From Rhodococcus sp. SGAir0479 (GTDB taxonomy: Bacteria; Actinomycetota; Actinomycetes; Mycobacteriales; Mycobacteriaceae): a stretch of DNA of 64,000 nt. Where the stretch lies: positions 496,001 to 560,000 of the forward strand of contig NZ_CP039432.1 of assembly GCF_005484805.1 (NCBI RefSeq), in the 5' to 3' direction. Shown here piece by piece: positions 49,887 through 56,241 of this stretch. A program made the translations under genes and the position numbers. The notes beneath the pieces were generated by a model. That model was not told the DNA's origin and made no database searches. It saw only the letters and a list, made by a program, of their open reading frames with translations. Numbering within the stretch: the first letter of the stretch is position 1; the number at the start of each line of letters is the position of its first letter.

Positions 49887-50735
49887 ATGACGATCACGGT
49901 CGAGGACTTCGAGGCCGCCCGGCCGCAACTGCTCTCGGTGGCTCATCGCATGCTGGGGTCCGCGCAGGACGCGGAAGACGCGGTCCAGTCGGCGTGGCTG
50001 CGCGCCGCGACCGCGCGCGGCGATGTCGTCGTGGAGAACCCGGTGGGATGGTTGACCACCGTCACGGCGCGGGTGTGCCTGGACGAACTGCGTGCCCGGC
50101 GGCGACGCCGCGAGTTGTCCCTGACGGCCGATGCTGTTCCCGCGGAGCAACTGTCCGCCGACGAAGCCGTCATCCGCGCCGAGAACGTCTCGCGGGCGCT
50201 GATGGTCCTGCTCGACCAGCTCACCCCGTCCCAGCGGGTGGCGTACGTCCTGCACGACCTGTTCGCGGTGCCGTTCGACCGCATCGCCCTCGTTCTGGAC
50301 GGCACGGTGGCCGGAGCGAAGAAGCACGCCAGTCGGGCGCGGCAGCGCCTGGACGGTTCCGTCGTCGACTCGGAACCGGCCGGCCGCGTGGACTCATCGG
50401 TGGTCGACGCATTCATGCTGGCCGCCCGGAGCGGGGACACCCGCGCCATGATCCGGCTCCTCGCGCCGGACTGTGTCCGCGATGCCGACGCCGCGCTGAT
50501 CCCGGAGGGCGTCGCGGCGGTGGTCACGGGGGCCGAGGCGGTGGCAACCGAGACGGCGCGGTTCCTCGCCCGCATCCGAATGGCGTGTCCACTGCGGGTG
50601 GACGGGGCGCGCGTGTACGTGATCGCGCCCGGTGGGCACCCCCTCGCGACCGTCCGCCTGCGCACCGCCGACGGTCGCATCTGCCGCATCACGGTACGAC
50701 GCGTCGGCCGTGCGGACCGCTTCGCTGCCACCTGA
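49887..50735 (+). CDS. ECF sigma factor of the ECF41/SigJ type with C-terminal SnoaL-like domain
   Basis: A 282-residue sigma factor. Region 2 is AHRMLGSAQDAEDAVQSAWLR near residues 20-40; region 4 is LTPSQRVAYVLHDLFAVPFDRIA near 115-137. From about 170 on it carries an NTF2/SnoaL-like extension (AFMLAARSGDTRAMIRLLAPD), which replaces an anti-sigma factor in this group and modulates activity. The usual DGGGK motif is altered to DADAALIPEG. AAAGG precedes the ATG. A promoter fitting its own group lies directly in front, pointing to the divergent gene. Confidence 0.88.
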   Translation: MTITVEDFEAARPQLLSVAHRMLGSAQDAEDAVQSAWLRAATARGDVVVENPVGWLTTVTARVCLDELRARRRRRELSLTADAVPAEQLSADEAVIRAENVSRALMVLLDQLTPSQRVAYVLHDLFAVPFDRIALVLDGTVAGAKKHASRARQRLDGSVVDSEPAGRVDSSVVDAFMLAARSGDTRAMIRLLAPDCVRDADAALIPEGVAAVVTGAEAVATETARFLARIRMACPLRVDGARVYVIAPGGHPLATVRLRTADGRICRITVRRVGRADRFAAT

Positions 50736-50808
50736 CGATCCCGACGTCGAGGGTCCGCCTATATTTCGGGGTCGAGACACATGTCGTAAACCTGATGGAG
50801 GCGCGGGC

Positions 50809-51606
50809 GTGGCCACGAACAGCGATGAGACGTCGGTGCCGTCGATGCTCGACAGGGTCGAGCTGATTCTCGAGGCCGTCGACGACAACGGCTATCTCAC
50901 CAACAGCCAGGCCGCCCGGCTCACCGGAATTCCGCGATCGACGGCGCACCGCCTGCTCGAGAAGATGGTCGCGATGCGCTGGCTGAAGCGGATCGACACC
51001 CGCTACGAGTTGGGCGTGCGTCTCTTCGAGTTGGGGTCCCGCGCAATTCGCGATCACTGGTTCCACAGTCTCTGCCTGCCGATCATGCAGGAGTTGCACC
51101 GCTCCACCGGCGCCGTCGTCCACCTGGCCTATCTCGACGGGATCGACAGCGTCTACTGGGAGAAGCTGTCCGGGGCGTTCGGTGCGAACGTGCCGTCCCG
51201 CATCGGCAGCCGCTATCCCGCCCACCGTTCCGCGGTGGGCAAGGCGCTCCTGTCGCGACTGCGCCCCGAAGCGATCGACGACCCGATGTTCGATCATCTC
51301 GATCACGGTGTGCCCGGCGGACGCGCCGCGCTCCGGACCGAACTCGAACAGACCCGCTCTCACGGCATCGCGTTCGACCGTGGGATCGCCGCGCCGTCAC
51401 TGGGGTGCGTCGGCGCCCCCGTCACGGCGGGGATTCCGGAGCCGGCGGCGATCTCGATCTGCGGCCCCGTGGAGCGGATCACGACGGATCGACGGATGAT
51501 CGACGCGGTCCAGCGCGCGGCGGCCGCGATCGAACGCGCGGCCTCTCGGGACGACGTCAGCGGGCGCGTCGACGCGCCTGATCGACCGCCGCGGCCACGG
51601 GCATGA
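50809..51606 (+). CDS. IclR-family transcriptional regulator
   Basis: A 265-residue regulator: N-terminal winged helix (YLTNSQAARLTGIPRSTAHRLLEKM near 28-52) and a C-terminal effector domain (IGSRYPAHRSAVGKALLS near 131-148 is the conserved IclR segment). GTG 50809 has GGAGG eight bases upstream. Its end overlaps the convergent MBL hydrolase gene by 50 bases. The target is unknown; the neighbouring ssu operon and MBL hydrolase are possibilities. Confidence 0.9.
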   Translation: MATNSDETSVPSMLDRVELILEAVDDNGYLTNSQAARLTGIPRSTAHRLLEKMVAMRWLKRIDTRYELGVRLFELGSRAIRDHWFHSLCLPIMQELHRSTGAVVHLAYLDGIDSVYWEKLSGAFGANVPSRIGSRYPAHRSAVGKALLSRLRPEAIDDPMFDHLDHGVPGGRAALRTELEQTRSHGIAFDRGIAAPSLGCVGAPVTAGIPEPAAISICGPVERITTDRRMIDAVQRAAAAIERAASRDDVSGRVDAPDRPPRPRA

Positions 51607-52297
51607 ACACCGCGGGGCCGTGCCCGGGAACGACGGTGTCCGCATCCAGCGCCGCGAGCTGGTCGAGCGCGGTCAGCGTGTGGTGCCCGCCGTGGTCGAA
51701 GACTTGCGGAAGTAATTGCGGTCCGCGCAGTTTCGACAGCGGGTGGGCGGTGACGAGCGCGTCCCCCGTGACGACGACACCGGGTCCGGGCAGGTGGAAG
51801 GCGGTGTGCCCGGACGTGTGGCCGTGCGTGGCCACCGGCACCGGAGCGCCCGGCAGGTCCAGCGCCTCGCCGGGGGCGAAGCCGCCCGCCTCGACGGACA
51901 GCTGTCGTGTGGCACCCGCGCGCGCGATGCGCAGCAGCCAGGGCAGCACGCCGTGCTTGTGGAGCATCGGGACGAAGTCCCTGCCCGTCGCCTGCTCGAG
52001 GTAGTCGCGGCGCGCGTGCGCGACTTCGACGGGGTCCGTGAGCACCGGGATTCCGTACTGCTCGTGGAACGCGACGACGGCACCCATGTGGTCGATGTGC
52101 GCGTGGGTGAGCAGCATCGCCTCCACGTCCTGAGGACGCCGGCCGAGGCGACGGATCGCGTCCTCCACGGCCGCGACGTCGCCGGGATAGCCGCCGTCGA
52201 TCAGCGTCAACGCGCCGCCGTCCCGCAGGATCACGACGTTCACATCGGTCCCGCTCGCGCGAAACACGTTCGGTGCGACTTCTTCCACGGGCCCCAC
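51557..52297 (-). CDS. Metallo-beta-lactamase-fold hydrolase
   Basis: A 246-residue enzyme with the metal motif THAHIDHMG near residues 64-72, GHTSGHTAFHL further on and VVTGDALV and VPGHGP, giving two metal sites. Such proteins hydrolyse thioesters, lactones or similar; no substrate signal is visible. GTG 52297 or GTG 52288 can be the start. It is divergent from the ssu operon leader. Confidence 0.9.
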   Translation of the reverse strand: MGPVEEVAPNVFRASGTDVNVVILRDGGALTLIDGGYPGDVAAVEDAIRRLGRRPQDVEAMLLTHAHIDHMGAVVAFHEQYGIPVLTDPVEVAHARRDYLEQATGRDFVPMLHKHGVLPWLLRIARAGATRQLSVEAGGFAPGEALDLPGAPVPVATHGHTSGHTAFHLPGPGVVVTGDALVTAHPLSKLRGPQLLPQVFDHGGHHTLTALDQLAALDADTVVPGHGPAVFMPVAAAVDQARRRAR

Positions 52298-52377
52298 AGT
52301 ATCGAACTCGGGTGATTCGAAGTCTTGAACGCCCAGCGTGCGGCGGTGCGGCGTCCAGTCTCCGGTGATGTGGACCG

Positions 52378-52406
52378 TTGACCGGACCGCCCCCCGATCC
52401 GAGGAT
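52378..52406 (+). promoter_or_regulatory. Promoter of the cysteine leader ORF / ssu operon
   Basis: TTGACC (52378-52383), a 17-base spacer and GAGGAT (52401-52406) form a good -35/-10 pair. The -10 ends seven bases before the ATG of the leader ORF, so transcription should begin at or next to that ATG. Confidence 0.55.
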
Positions 52407-52413
52407 TCTCGGC

Positions 52414-52497
52414 ATGACCACTGTCGCCGACACCCACGCGCCCCGGCATGCCCTCGAGGCCTGCTGCCGGTGTGCCCGCTGTCCGCGTCCGTTCTGA
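52414..52497 (+). CDS. Cysteine-rich leader peptide of the sulfonate operon, 27 residues
   Basis: ATG 52414 opens 27 codons beginning MTTVADTHAPRH and ending ACCRCARCPRPF, with four Cys codons at positions 17, 18, 20 and 23. It precedes four genes for uptake and desulfonation of organosulfur compounds. Leaderless polycysteine mini-ORFs are known in mycobacteria to sense cysteine by ribosome stalling upstream of sulfur genes. The same logic fits here: low cysteine stalls the ribosome and frees the downstream start of ssuA. Function is inferred. Confidence 0.75.
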   Translation: MTTVADTHAPRHALEACCRCARCPRPF

Positions 52498-52505
52498 TCC
52501 ACCGT

Positions 52506-52520
52506 CCCGCGCTGCGCGGG
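52506..52520 (+). promoter_or_regulatory. Attenuator-type hairpin CCCGCG-CTG-CGCGGG after the leader ORF
   Basis: A perfect 6-bp GC stem starts nine bases after the leader stop codon, where a ribosome stalled at the Cys codons would influence folding. Several alternative GC pairings with 52521-52560 are possible. Confidence 0.45.
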
Positions 52521-52590
52521 CCCGCTCACCGCCCACCACCGCAGGCGGCTCGGGCGCTCGTCTCGACCTTTTCCGTATCGGAGGTTTTCC

Positions 52591-53601
52591 ATGCGTCGTT
52601 CGACGCGAACACGTTTCGTTCTCGCGGCCCTGACAGCCGTGTCTGCGCTGACGGTCGGTGCCTGCAGCAGTTCCGGCGCGTCGGAACCGTCCGACACCGC
52701 CGGCAACCCGCAGGCCAGCGTCACGCTGCGCATCGGGGACCAGGTGAAGGGCACCCAGTCGCTGTTGGAGGCGGCCGGCGCGCTCGACGACCTCGACTAC
52801 CGGATCGAGTGGTCCACGTTCGAGGCCGGCCCGCCGTTGCTGGAAGCACTGGGCGCCAACAAGATCGATGCCGGCAGCACCGGCGACGTGCCGCCCGTGT
52901 TCGCCCAGGCCAACGGCAATTCCGGGCGTATCGTCGCGGTCCAGGCGCGGACCGGTGCCAACGACTTCCTCCTGGTGCCCGCGAACTCGACGGCGTCGTC
53001 CATCGCCGATCTGAAGGGCAAGAGGATCGCGGTGACACAGGGTTCGAGCTCGCACGGACTGGTGCTGGGACTGCTCGAACAGGCCGGGCTTCCCGTCTCG
53101 GACTTCCAGTTCCAGTTCCTCGGTCCCGCGGACGCCCTGAGTGCGTTCACGGCCGGCCAGGTCGACGCGTGGGCGGTCTGGAATCCGTACTCGACCATCG
53201 GGCAGAACACCGCCGGCGCCAAGGTGATCGCCGACGGCAGCGAGGTCACCACCGGGCAGACGTACTTCTCCGCCGCGTCGGACGCACTGGCCGATCCGGC
53301 GAAGTCGGCGGCCCTGGCCGACTTCTTCGGACGGTTGTCGCGCGCCCAGGTGTGGGCGGACACGCACCCCGAGGCGTGGGTGCCGATCTTCGCGAAGCTG
53401 ACCAAGCTGCCCGAGGACGTCGCGCAGGCATCCTTCGACACGTCCAAGGGGCACTATGTGCCCATCGACGGCGACCGCATCGCGAAGCAGCAGAAGCTGA
53501 TCGACCTGTTCGCCGCCGGGGGACTGCTGAAGCAGGCCCCGGTGGCGGCCGACTGGTTCGACGCCAGGTTCAACGACCGGATCGAGGCGGGGACGAAATG
53601 A
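52591..53601 (+). CDS. ssuA: Sulfonate ABC transporter substrate-binding lipoprotein
   Basis: A 336-residue periplasmic-type binding protein of the SsuA/NrtA/TauA group. A lipobox TVGACSSS places the lipid on Cys at about residue 25. Family features: LRIGDQVKGTQSLLEAAG, ANKIDAGSTGDVPPVFAQ near 88-105, and DLKGKRIAVTQGSSSHGLVLGLLE. CGGAGG lies before the ATG. It is the first gene of ssuACBD; its stop overlaps ssuC (ATGA). Confidence 0.92.
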   Translation: MRRSTRTRFVLAALTAVSALTVGACSSSGASEPSDTAGNPQASVTLRIGDQVKGTQSLLEAAGALDDLDYRIEWSTFEAGPPLLEALGANKIDAGSTGDVPPVFAQANGNSGRIVAVQARTGANDFLLVPANSTASSIADLKGKRIAVTQGSSSHGLVLGLLEQAGLPVSDFQFQFLGPADALSAFTAGQVDAWAVWNPYSTIGQNTAGAKVIADGSEVTTGQTYFSAASDALADPAKSAALADFFGRLSRAQVWADTHPEAWVPIFAKLTKLPEDVAQASFDTSKGHYVPIDGDRIAKQQKLIDLFAAGGLLKQAPVAADWFDARFNDRIEAGTK

Positions 53602-54440
53602 CCGCCGTCCTGACGAAGGAAGTGTCGGCGGCCGGCGCGCCCGGGAGCGCCGCCCCGGCGCGGACCGCGCGCACGAAACGCTCGTGGAAGCCGCTGCTGC
53701 GTCTCGTCTCGCCGCTGCTGCTCCTGGTGTTGTGGCAGGTGGTCAGCAGCGCGGGCCTGGTGTCCGACAAGACGCTGGCGTCACCGGCCCAGGTCGCGTC
53801 GGCGGCGTCCGAACTGTGGTCCGACGGGAGCCTGCAGGATGCGCTGGCCGTCTCCGTGCAGCGGGTCGCGCTCGGCGTCGTCCTCGGTGTCGCGCTCGCG
53901 GTGGTCCTCGGCGTGCTGGCCGGTTTCTCGCGCATCGTGGAACTCGCCATCGATCCGCCGATCCAGATGCTGCGGACCGTACCGTTCCTCGGGCTCATCC
54001 CACTGTTCATCATCTGGTTCGGGATCGGCGAACAGCCCAAGGTGTTCCTCGTCGCGCTCGGTGTGATGTTCCCGCTGTACCTCAACCTCTTTGCGGGGAT
54101 CAGGAGCATCGACGGGAAGCTGATCGAGGCTGCAGAGACGCTCGGACTCGGCAAGGTCCAGCTCGCGTTCCACGTCATCCTGCCCGGCGCGCTGCCGCAG
54201 GCGCTGACGGGACTGCGGATGTCCCTGGGCGTCGCGTGGCTGGCCCTCATCGTCGCCGAACAGATCAACGCGGACGCCGGCCTCGGATACCTGATCAACA
54301 ACGCCCGCATCTATTTCCGCATCGACATCGTCATCTTCGGTCTGCTCGTCTACGCGTTCCTCGGTCTCGCGACCGACGCGGTGGTGCGGGCCCTGGAAGG
54401 AAGGCTGCTGACATGGCGCAAGACGTACCAGGGGATGTGA
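53598..54440 (+). CDS. ssuC: Sulfonate ABC transporter permease
   Basis: A 280-residue permease with about six membrane segments and the EAA-type loop EAAETLGLGKVQLAFHVILPGALPQ in the last third (key residues EAAETLG and LPGALP). PIQMLRTVPFLGLIPLFIIWFG is typical of the SsuC/TauC group. The start overlaps ssuA and its end overlaps ssuB by 28 bases. Confidence 0.94.
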   Translation: MTAVLTKEVSAAGAPGSAAPARTARTKRSWKPLLRLVSPLLLLVLWQVVSSAGLVSDKTLASPAQVASAASELWSDGSLQDALAVSVQRVALGVVLGVALAVVLGVLAGFSRIVELAIDPPIQMLRTVPFLGLIPLFIIWFGIGEQPKVFLVALGVMFPLYLNLFAGIRSIDGKLIEAAETLGLGKVQLAFHVILPGALPQALTGLRMSLGVAWLALIVAEQINADAGLGYLINNARIYFRIDIVIFGLLVYAFLGLATDAVVRALEGRLLTWRKTYQGM

Positions 54441-55147
54441 GCGACGAAGTCGTCATCGCCCGCGGTGTGCGCCGGGTCTTCGGATCCGACGTCGTGCTCG
54501 ACGGGATCGATCTGACGCTGCGCCGCGGTGAGATCGTGGCGCTGGTGGGGCGCAGCGGGTCGGGCAAGTCCACGTTGCTGCGGACGATCGCCGGGCTCGA
54601 CCGCGGTCACGGCGGACGGATCGACCTCGACGGTTCCGTGGCGGTCGCCTTCCAGGAACCGCGGCTGTTGCCGTGGAAGCGGGTGCACCGCAACGTCTCG
54701 CTGGGGTTGTCCGGCGAGAACGGCAAGCAGCGCGCCGTCGACGCTCTCGCGGAGGTCAATCTCGGGCACCGGGTGGACGCGTGGCCGCTCACCCTGTCCG
54801 GTGGTGAGGCGCAACGCGTGTCGTTGGCGCGGGCGCTGGTTCGTGAGCCGGACCTGCTGCTGCTGGACGAGCCGTTCGGCGCGCTCGACGCGCTGACCCG
54901 AATAACGGCGTACGACCTGCTGATCCGGTTGTGGCGTCGCCACGGCTTCGCGGTCCTCCTCGTCACCCACGACGTCGAGGAGGCGGTGCTGCTCGCCGAC
55001 CGGGTCCTCGTGCTCGACGGTGGCCACATCGCGCACGACGTGGCGGTCACGGCGCCCCGCCCACGCTCGCGGGCCGACGACGGCGTCGTCGATCTGCGCA
55101 CGCGTGTTCTCGCTCATCTCGGTGTTCTCGAAGGGATTCCAGCATGA
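54413..55147 (+). CDS. ssuB: Sulfonate ABC transporter ATP-binding protein
   Basis: A 244-residue ATPase: Walker A GRSGSGKST near 43-51, Q-loop FQEPRLLPWKRV, ABC signature LSGGEAQRVSLARAL, Walker B LLLLDEPFGALD, switch His THDVEEA. The RLLPW segment is characteristic of SsuB/TauB. The start ATG 54413 lies within the end of ssuC, and its stop overlaps ssuD by four bases. Confidence 0.95.
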   Translation: MAQDVPGDVSDEVVIARGVRRVFGSDVVLDGIDLTLRRGEIVALVGRSGSGKSTLLRTIAGLDRGHGGRIDLDGSVAVAFQEPRLLPWKRVHRNVSLGLSGENGKQRAVDALAEVNLGHRVDAWPLTLSGGEAQRVSLARALVREPDLLLLDEPFGALDALTRITAYDLLIRLWRRHGFAVLLVTHDVEEAVLLADRVLVLDGGHIAHDVAVTAPRPRSRADDGVVDLRTRVLAHLGVLEGIPA

Positions 55148-56241
55148 CCCTGCACTTCCACTGGTACCTGCCCACGTCCGGTGACGGCCGGGAGGTGATC
55201 GGTGCGCTCGAGTCGCGGGACGCGTCGGGTCGGGCGTCGGAGTTCCGGCCGGCGTCGCTCGATTACCTGACGCTGGTCGCGAAGACCGCGGAACAACTCG
55301 GCTTCGAGGCGGTGCTCACGCCCACCGGGTCGTGGTGCCCGGACGCGTGGATCACCACCGCCGCCCTCATTCGGGAGACCCGCACGCTGAAGTTCCTGGT
55401 GGCCTTCCGCCCGGGGCTGATCACCCCGACGCTGGCCGCGCAACAGGCTGCCGCCTTCCAACAGTTGTCGAACGGCCGGTTGCTCCTCAACATCGTGACC
55501 GGCGGTGACGCCGAGGAGCAGCGCCGCTTTGGTGACTTCCTCACCAAGCAGGAGCGGTACGAGCGGACGGGGGAGTTCCTCGACATCGTGCGCGGGGCGT
55601 GGGGATCGGCACCCTACGACTACGCGGGCAAGTACTACACGGTCGAGGGTGCGGCGGCGTTCCCCACGCCCACTCCGGCGCCGGGGGTCTTCTTCGGTGG
55701 GGCGAGCGAGCCCGCACTGGACGTTGCGGCGCAGCACGTCGACACCTACCTGACCTGGACCGAGCCGCCGGCGAAGGTGGGTGCGCTGATCGACGACGTC
55801 CGTCGCCGCGCCGCTGCGCACGGGCGCACGCTCAGCTTCGGTATCCGCGCCCACGTGATCGCGCGGGACACGTCCGAGGAGGCGTGGGCGGAGGCAGACA
55901 AGCTCGTCGGGCGGATCAGCCCCGCCCAGATCGAGCTGGCCCGCACCCGGCTGGCACAGAGTGAGTCCGAGGGGCAGCGGCGACAGCTGGGGCTGAGCGC
56001 GGACCTGCGCAACCTCGAGGTGTATCGGGGGCTGTGGGCGGGCTTCGGGCTGGTCCGCGGCGGCGCCGGCACCGCCCTCGTCGGCAGCCACGAGGAGGTC
56101 GCCGCCCTGATCCAGGAGTACGCCGCGGTGGGTGTCGAACACTTCGTGCTCTCGGGCCAGCCGCACATCGAGGAGGCGTACTGGTTCGCGGAGGGCGTGC
56201 GTCCGATCCTGTCCCGTCGGGGGCTGCTGCAGGCGGCCTGA
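55144..56241 (+). CDS. ssuD: FMNH2-dependent alkanesulfonate monooxygenase
   Basis: A 365-residue LLM-class flavin-dependent enzyme that cleaves the carbon-sulfur bond of sulfonates, releasing sulfite and an aldehyde. FHWYLPTSGDGR, LTPTGSWCPDAWI, LKFLVAFRPGLITPTLAAQQ and NIVTGGDAEEQRRFGD are SsuD hallmarks. No flavin reductase (SsuE) is in the operon, so reduced FMN must come from elsewhere. It completes ssuACBD and supports the cysteine-leader interpretation. Confidence 0.94.
   Translation: MTLHFHWYLPTSGDGREVIGALESRDASGRASEFRPASLDYLTLVAKTAEQLGFEAVLTPTGSWCPDAWITTAALIRETRTLKFLVAFRPGLITPTLAAQQAAAFQQLSNGRLLLNIVTGGDAEEQRRFGDFLTKQERYERTGEFLDIVRGAWGSAPYDYAGKYYTVEGAAAFPTPTPAPGVFFGGASEPALDVAAQHVDTYLTWTEPPAKVGALIDDVRRRAAAHGRTLSFGIRAHVIARDTSEEAWAEADKLVGRISPAQIELARTRLAQSESEGQRRQLGLSADLRNLEVYRGLWAGFGLVRGGAGTALVGSHEEVAALIQEYAAVGVEHFVLSGQPHIEEAYWFAEGVRPILSRRGLLQAA

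Follow-up and report, generated by a model that had tools for sequence, protein, structure and literature searches.

The ssuACBD operon of Rhodococcus sp. SGAir0479 is preceded by a short cysteine-rich leader ORF, which is proposed to act in cis as a cysteine-responsive attenuator of these genes, at the level of either translation or transcription. A rough probability of 0.72 is assigned to this reading; it covers attenuators of either type and, therefore, overlaps with the transcription-attenuation alternative considered below. Leader and operon are located in a stretch of 64,000 nucleotides, hereafter referred to as the window. A sequence-only reading of the window had already put forward a cysteine attenuator of the ssu operon; the ORF, its spacing, the operon, the conservation of the Cys codons and the presence of companion leaders speak for that claim, whereas wide conservation found no support in a survey that has gaps.

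Leader ORF and promoter

52378..52406, plus strand: predicted leader promoter with -35 box TTGACC (52378-52383), 17-nt spacer and -10-like box GAGGAT (52401-52406)
52414..52497, plus strand: leader ORF MTTVADTHAPRHALEACCRCARCPRPF, 27 codons plus TGA; predicted leaderless, conserved in the genus
52462..52482, plus strand: Cys tract TGC TGC CGG TGT GCC CGC TGT; predicted site of ribosome stalling under Cys-tRNA shortage

The leader ATG (52414) is located 7 nt 3' of the -10-like box and the stop codon TGA occupies 52495-52497; position 52378, the first coordinate of the finding, belongs to the -35 box and not to the ATG. Four Cys codons (at 52462, 52465, 52471 and 52480) fall within seven codons. 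The -35 box agrees with the consensus in 5 of 6 positions, and the -10 box is weak, sharing 3 of 6 positions with TATAAT; the leader promoter was not among the promoters reported by a sigma-70 consensus scan of the region. From the spacing of -35 and -10 boxes before the ATG, the 5' end of the transcript is expected to coincide with the leader start codon or to lie right beside it, i.e., leaderless transcription of the ORF is predicted. The start seven bases after a -10 box that had been read from the sequence was thus found as described, together with a -35 box.

The ssu operon and its surroundings

52591..53601, plus strand: ssuA, sulfonate-binding lipoprotein (NCBIfam TIGR01728, 3.3e-61, above cut-off)
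53598..54440, plus strand: ssuC, permease (best NCBIfam match NF008470 SsuC, 1.9e-66, below its cut-off)
54437..55147, plus strand: ssuB, ATPase, GTG start (best NCBIfam match NF008420, 2.3e-72, below its cut-off)
55144..56241, plus strand: ssuD, alkanesulfonate monooxygenase (NCBIfam NF001939, 3.3e-120, and TIGR03565, 3.1e-119, both below their cut-offs)

The four genes follow each other with 4-nt overlaps, and 93 nt separate the leader from ssuA. The order ssuACBD given in the sequence-only reading was confirmed, with SsuA identified above the NCBIfam cut-off and the other three products by their best models only. A divergently oriented gene for a metallo-beta-lactamase-fold hydrolase (51557-52297, minus strand) lies upstream of the leader, followed further out by a gene for an IclR-type regulator (50668-51606), and a gene for an FBP C-terminal treble-clef zinc-finger protein (PF16571; 56340-56828) is found just after ssuD on the same strand. 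About 47 nt upstream of the -35 box, a sequence box (GTGATTCGAAGTCTTGAAC, 52312-52330) has close counterparts in the genus loci viewed and occurs once in the genome at up to one mismatch. It is also kept in genome G009 (locus L135), where a natural deletion has removed the ssu leader together with the first two thirds of ssuA, and it may perhaps represent a regulator site.

Conservation within the genus

The nearest named relatives are Prescottella species (Rhodococcus equi clade) with SsuA proteins of 87-91 % identity; five of them are identical in sequence to genomes assigned to the genus of the window. Among 14 genomes of this genus, 11 contain some SsuA match and nine, including the present one, a full-length ssuA. 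All nine possess the leader ORF with its promoter and four to five Cys codons, the leader starting 177-199 nt upstream of ssuA. GTTGAC is found at matching distance (within 1 nt) and a NANNAT box 6-7 nt before the ATG in 9/9, and eight of the nine peptides end with CPRSC directly before the stop. No TANNNT or NANNAT box was detected between leader codon 10 and ssuA in eight of the nine loci, and ssuA, ssuC and ssuD are arranged in the same order in all five named genus loci L003-L007 (ssuB was absent from the query). The five Cys columns are occupied in 9, 8, 8, 9 and 8 of 9 leaders: the fifth Cys, preceding the stop, is missing from the peptide of the window, and two other leaders each lack one internal Cys. 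In the five genus genomes devoid of a full-length ssuA, a strict codon pattern, which also fails to detect the true leaders of G008 and G010 (two of the nine), had no match in four and a match without in-frame start codon in the fifth (G012). Hence, the Cys-rich mini-ORF announced by the sequence-only reading is present as a conserved 27-codon frame with four Cys in seven codons, and the proposed check for Cys codons maintained amid varying flanks gave a positive result in the genus, where several other codons vary. The leader is a real, probably functional and genus-specific element.

That the ORF arose by chance is hardly credible. GC-rich DNA of this kind does yield Cys-rich short frames, 20 of which (9 + 11) were counted on the two strands of the window, frames with a common stop being counted apart; only the ssu leader among them has a -10 box at leaderless spacing, and it has a -35 box as well. 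The window and loci L008-L058 together (795,228 bases, both strands summed) contain 49 short frames in which three or more of seven codons encode Cys; four of them reach four or more, and only the ssu leader among these four is accompanied by a -10 box. At the TGY frequency of the window, at least four Cys in seven codons are expected with P of about 1.6e-5 per position. The arrangement TTGAC, 16 or 17 nt, NANNAT, 5 to 7 nt, ATGAY, a pattern composed after viewing the leader site and its relatives, has a single occurrence in the 64-kb window, whereas 100 shuffles gave none. The decisive check is that start codon, reading frame, stop codon and Cys codons are all retained in 9/9 genomes, which in substance refutes a chance origin; the rarity of such a frame behind a promoter also speaks against it.

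The mode of conservation is unusual for a coding region. Variability at the three codon positions amounts to 0.173, 0.250 and 0.195, i.e., third positions are not the most variable ones, and the Cys columns show no synonymous change, their wobble bases being invariant among the nine leaders, while some other conserved residues do show synonymous changes. Invariant Cys wobble bases and the lack of third-position concentration suggest that constraint on the RNA acts in addition to, or in place of, the usual constraint on coding. The same two features would also fit a conserved promoter combined with an RNA or DNA element (a protein-binding site or a switch made of untranslated RNA), the open frame then being incidental, and the conserved box at 52312-52330 could then be the site of a regulator. 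This explanation is considered unlikely, however, since start, frame, stop and Cys codons are maintained in 9/9 with a 3-nt length difference in the alignment of the nine leaders that preserves the frame, since companion Cys leaders exist in the genome, and since Rfam returned no match at E 0.1 in four of the nine genus ssu leaders (that of the window, L090, as well as L059, L065 and L066). Still less probable is a function of the peptide itself, e.g., as a small metal- or thiol-binding protein: the CCxCxxC spacing found in 7/9 peptides would suit such a role, but three lineages each lack a different Cys, several other positions vary, and the ORF stands first in the operon behind a predicted leaderless promoter, as other leaders do.

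Companion leaders and leader-peptide families

Model NF042934 identified three further leaders above its cut-off in the same genome (C1:93067, 4622258 and 3436935) and a fourth one just below (2244547, 25.0 bits); 14 control genomes gave no score reaching this cut-off. Each of the four leaders starts 7 nt downstream of a NANNNT box, the -35 matches being variable. They precede, in the order given, a DUF4395 gene, a luciferase-like gene, a cluster of a SCO4226-like gene and an ABC ATPase gene, and a sulfite/nitrite-reductase-like gene with cysH. The reductase-like gene was recognized by models below their cut-offs and the neighbouring cysH above cut-off. The leader in front of these two genes, designated sirA-type here (MTDTGVRLVARRHVDLKRVCSCCCLPCGV), passes model NF042936 (leader_Ms4527A) with 50.8 versus 45 bits, demonstrating that the mycobacterial type of Cys leader is present in this genome; the leader of the DUF4395 gene attained 43.0 bits with Ms5788A (cut-off 45 bits). 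Four further Cys leaders with leaderless spacing thus accompany the ssu leader, itself an additional candidate that escapes the models.

Further observations concern individual leader regions. The leader at G000:C1:3436935 (L205, L208; VTRSFLTRRLHLDLVRVAGAACCRLTMR) is followed by the SCO4226-like gene and the ABC ATPase gene; assignment of the first of them as rpsF was rejected. At G000:C1:4622258 (L194, L209), the Cys leader MESTGTSGRWSRRHVDLCRTSSEMCRD shows leaderless spacing and precedes the luciferase-like ORF (PF00296, below the gathering score), which perhaps represents an organosulfur gene. An eleventh region of the NF042934 type scored 20.4 bits (G000:C1:2189883), and the ORF next to the DUF4395 gene had no NCBIfam match at 1e-40.

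None of the nine ssu peptides matched NF042934, NF042933 or NF042936 at E 10, a search in which the HMMER filters drop most matches above about 0.1. Aligned with the sirA-type leader of the same genome, six of the nine outscored 994 or more of 1000 shuffles (MT..V...ARRH..Cys tract); the window's own peptide, L065 and L066 were not significantly similar to it. With Cys positions fixed, 5/9 stayed below 1 %, and L060 was reached by 43 of 2000. A Pfam match of the ssu peptide to IL17 (E 0.057, below cut-off) was judged a chance hit.

Distribution outside the genus

Among 251 genomes of the family, SsuA was detected at E 1e-60 in 72, of which 64 lie outside the genus. About 1 kb upstream of ssuA was taken for 59 of these 64 and for G009 (G171, G205, G207, G224 and G239 were left out), and a filter for Cys codons and -10 boxes applied to the resulting 60 stretches returned 24 rows; on visual inspection, 16 of these appear to be fragments of an ABC ATPase gene read out of frame. 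No polycysteine leaderless ORF resembling the ssu leader was found among these rows or in seven stretches that were read (L117-L123). The filter overlooked the Cys leaders of L122 and L123, which were found by reading, so that other leaders may be overlooked as well; moreover, an ATPase-like frame precedes ssuA in at least 15 loci, meaning that the operon start was not reached there. The two named Gordonia loci L008 and L009, with ssuA, ssuC and ssuD in the same order, contain no leader of the ssu type; in one of them (L009, L121) a Cys-containing frame without leaderless box lies inside the upstream gene. The codon pattern ACCxCxxCPR matched in 17 of 401 family genomes, seven matches being genus ssu leaders; of the remaining ten, nine have no in-frame start codon and one falls inside a frame of 266 codons, whose -10-like box is attributed to chance. 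Among 23 named loci (L008-L030), Actinophytocola and Umezawaea contain Cys frames of the RRHVDF and RLHVDL type about 1.7 kb before ssuA, for which no leaderless box was found. The check suggested earlier, inspection of ssu upstream regions in Rhodococcus, Nocardia and Gordonia, therefore turned out negative beyond Prescottella, the only genus in which the leader was found in a survey that has gaps.

A different arrangement was observed in two genomes of another genus (L122, L123), in which a SAM riboswitch (RF00162; E 2.5e-10 and 2.8e-10, respectively) is followed by a Cys leader of the RRHVDLCR type before ssuA, giving two sulfur sensors in tandem:

L122, 669-764: SAM riboswitch; Cys leader from 794 (NF042934, 36.9 bits, above the cut-off of 27)
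L123, 408-501, minus strand as fetched: SAM riboswitch; Cys leader (NF042934, 25.4 bits, just below the cut-off)

A tentative scenario, which is possible but rated doubtful, would be that an ancestral Prescottella copied a sirA-type leader to a position before ssuA and that this copy drifted beyond the reach of the models, whereas the same operon acquired other leaders elsewhere (RRHVDLCR, or SAM riboswitch plus Cys leader). If such leaders are portable modules, sulfonate use would have joined ribosome-sensed cysteine regulons more than once, each time independently.

RNA structure and proposed mechanism

52441..52470, plus strand: predicted hairpin between Arg-His-Ala codons and the first two Cys codons (pairing in 93.9 % of cells, both sides changing in 1 of 11 pairs)
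52472..52557, plus strand: predicted long-range helix of the Cys tract (52472-52481) with 52542-52545 and 52552-52557 (model only; both sides change in 2 of 10 pairs)
52506..52520, plus strand: GC hairpin after the leader stop (52506-52511 with 52515-52520), with stems near the same place in relatives
52570..52584, plus strand: ssuA Shine-Dalgarno (SD) sequence GGAGG (52580-52584) in a local stem

In the consensus fold predicted for the nine leaders, the Cys tract pairs with the region before ssuA, and the SD of ssuA pairs with CCUCACG; the 3' arm of the long-range helix (52542-52545 and 52552-52557) is located upstream of the ssuA ribosome-binding site. Counting 37 of the 53 predicted pairs (16 outside the main helices of the leader were left out), 93.1 % of cells pair and four pairs change on both sides, a value reached by 23 of 500 shuffles; the covariation score of these pairs was 0.136 as compared to 0.103 in shuffles (reached by 0/500). 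This covariation lends weak support, because the structure was derived from the same alignment, the sequences are related and RNAalifold itself returns a covariation term of +0.38, which is slightly unfavourable. When ribosome footprints were simulated on the Cys tract, the accessibility of the ssuA SD did not rise consistently, and shuffled leaders hide this SD to a similar extent (mean unpaired 0.111 in the leaders versus 0.125 in shuffles).

The notion that RRH codons owe their conservation mainly to pairing, as an RNA arm, with the Cys codons was rejected, as it fails synonymous shuffling in the sirA-type, luciferase-type and DUF4395 leaders (0/25 at 5 %). The ssu leaders gave a weak signal in this analysis (2/9 at 5 %, all nine z values negative). 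In leaders of the SCO4226-like cluster, a stem over the RLHLDLVRV codons beats synonymous shuffles in all five genus copies tested, its arm pairing with non-Cys codons.

The GC hairpin described earlier downstream of the leader stop is present, and in the predicted folds of the nine leaders a stem lies 6 to 13 nt after the stop, followed in most by C/U-rich sequence (by eye). As a conserved element it is weakly supported, since its energy (mean z -0.92) and covariation score (reached by 59 of 500 shuffles) are only slightly beyond controls; presence and position of the earlier claim thus stand, its statistical backing is weak. This stem is central to the possibility that translation of the leader decides between read-through and termination, the latter occurring at the hairpin with its pyrimidine-rich stretch or by Rho acting on the C-rich spacer. 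Such transcription attenuation would be cysteine-responsive too and is regarded as a possible, less favoured mode: C exceeds G in the spacer between leader and ssuA in 9/9, and Rho has been proposed for mycobacterial cys leaders in PMC1262725, but the U run of a classical transcription attenuator is missing after the post-stop stem, which is also not among the terminator-like matches in the region and whose energy and covariation, as stated, barely exceed controls. Control of ssuA translation via the ribosome-binding site appears somewhat likelier than premature termination; it is ranked first because of the mycobacterial precedent, even though the direct tests of SD masking were negative.

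According to the preferred reading of the leader as a cysteine-responsive attenuator, transcripts would begin with, or directly beside, the A of the leader start codon, where ribosomes would initiate without Shine-Dalgarno sequence. With ample Cys-tRNA, ribosomes would pass along the Cys tract and come off; the leader RNA would then fold, and ssuA would be poorly expressed. With Cys-tRNA in short supply, ribosomes would stall in the Cys tract and the RNA would rearrange, turning on the sulfonate genes and bringing in new sulfur. The 5' end, the translation of the leader, the cysteine response and the mechanism are all predictions. Several observations count against this reading: the weak -10 box, third codon positions that do not vary most, the missing matches to leader-peptide models, the loss of the last Cys from the window's peptide and its lack of significant similarity to the sirA-type leader, the RNAalifold covariation term and the SD accessibility results. 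Should the predictions apply, ribosome-sensed cysteine control would extend from mycobacteria to organosulfur scavenging in relatives of Rhodococcus, current leader-peptide models would overlook real members, and sulfonate use in actinobacteria would seem to be coupled to the Cys-tRNA level of the cell in a manner that differs between lineages. This would bear on desulfurization by rhodococci, for which repression by readily used sulfur sources is of practical concern.

Comparison with known systems

Canestrari and co-workers are said to have shown, in 2020, polycysteine leaderless sORF attenuators in mycobacteria. Reference to these mycobacterial sORFs (Canestrari 2020) is made in passages of PMC9031893, PMC13236596 and PMC9094748. 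Candidate Cys leaders before actinobacterial cys operons were proposed by Seliverstov et al. 2005 (PMC1262725), whose relevant passages list cys operons of Mycobacterium and P. acnes and cbs of B. longum; the terms "sulf" and "Rhodococcus" are absent from the main text of that paper. For R. qingshengii IGTS8, several Ssu proteins are tabulated under sulfur-source uptake in a section of PMC8557817, a paper whose text lacks the terms "leader", "attenuat" and "riboswitch", and the passages of PMC11133741 considered contain nothing on Cys leaders. The literature searched, which comprised in part the best 20 and best 10 of thousands of matches, offered no recognisable description of a Cys leader in front of ssu genes in this clade.

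Like the Cys leaders of PMC1262725, as far as the passages on them go, the ssu leader has a run of Cys codons near the stop and no clear terminator. With the RRHVDLCR-type leaders (NF042934, cis_reg_atten) it shares shortness, a position before sulfur genes and R-H before the Cys codons in eight of the nine peptides (Q-H in one of these), but it does not contain the xDLxR block and has no match to that model at E 10. Closer is the likeness to leader_Ms4527A (NF042936): six of nine ssu peptides resemble the sirA-type leader of the same genome, and both have a NANNAT box 6-7 nt before the ATG, whereas VDLKR is missing from the ssu peptides, which do not match this model at E 10 either. The mycobacterial polycysteine attenuators agree with the ssu leader in the predicted leaderless start, the Cys cluster near the 3' end, the position as first ORF before a sulfur operon and the spacer before an SD-led gene; in contrast to them, it occurs in another genus, is attached to ssu and is missed by the NCBIfam models, and the unmasking of the SD was not reproduced by RNA models. 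Taken together, the ssu leader is most likely a further, genus-specific member of the known polycysteine leaderless attenuators, here attached to the ssu operon.
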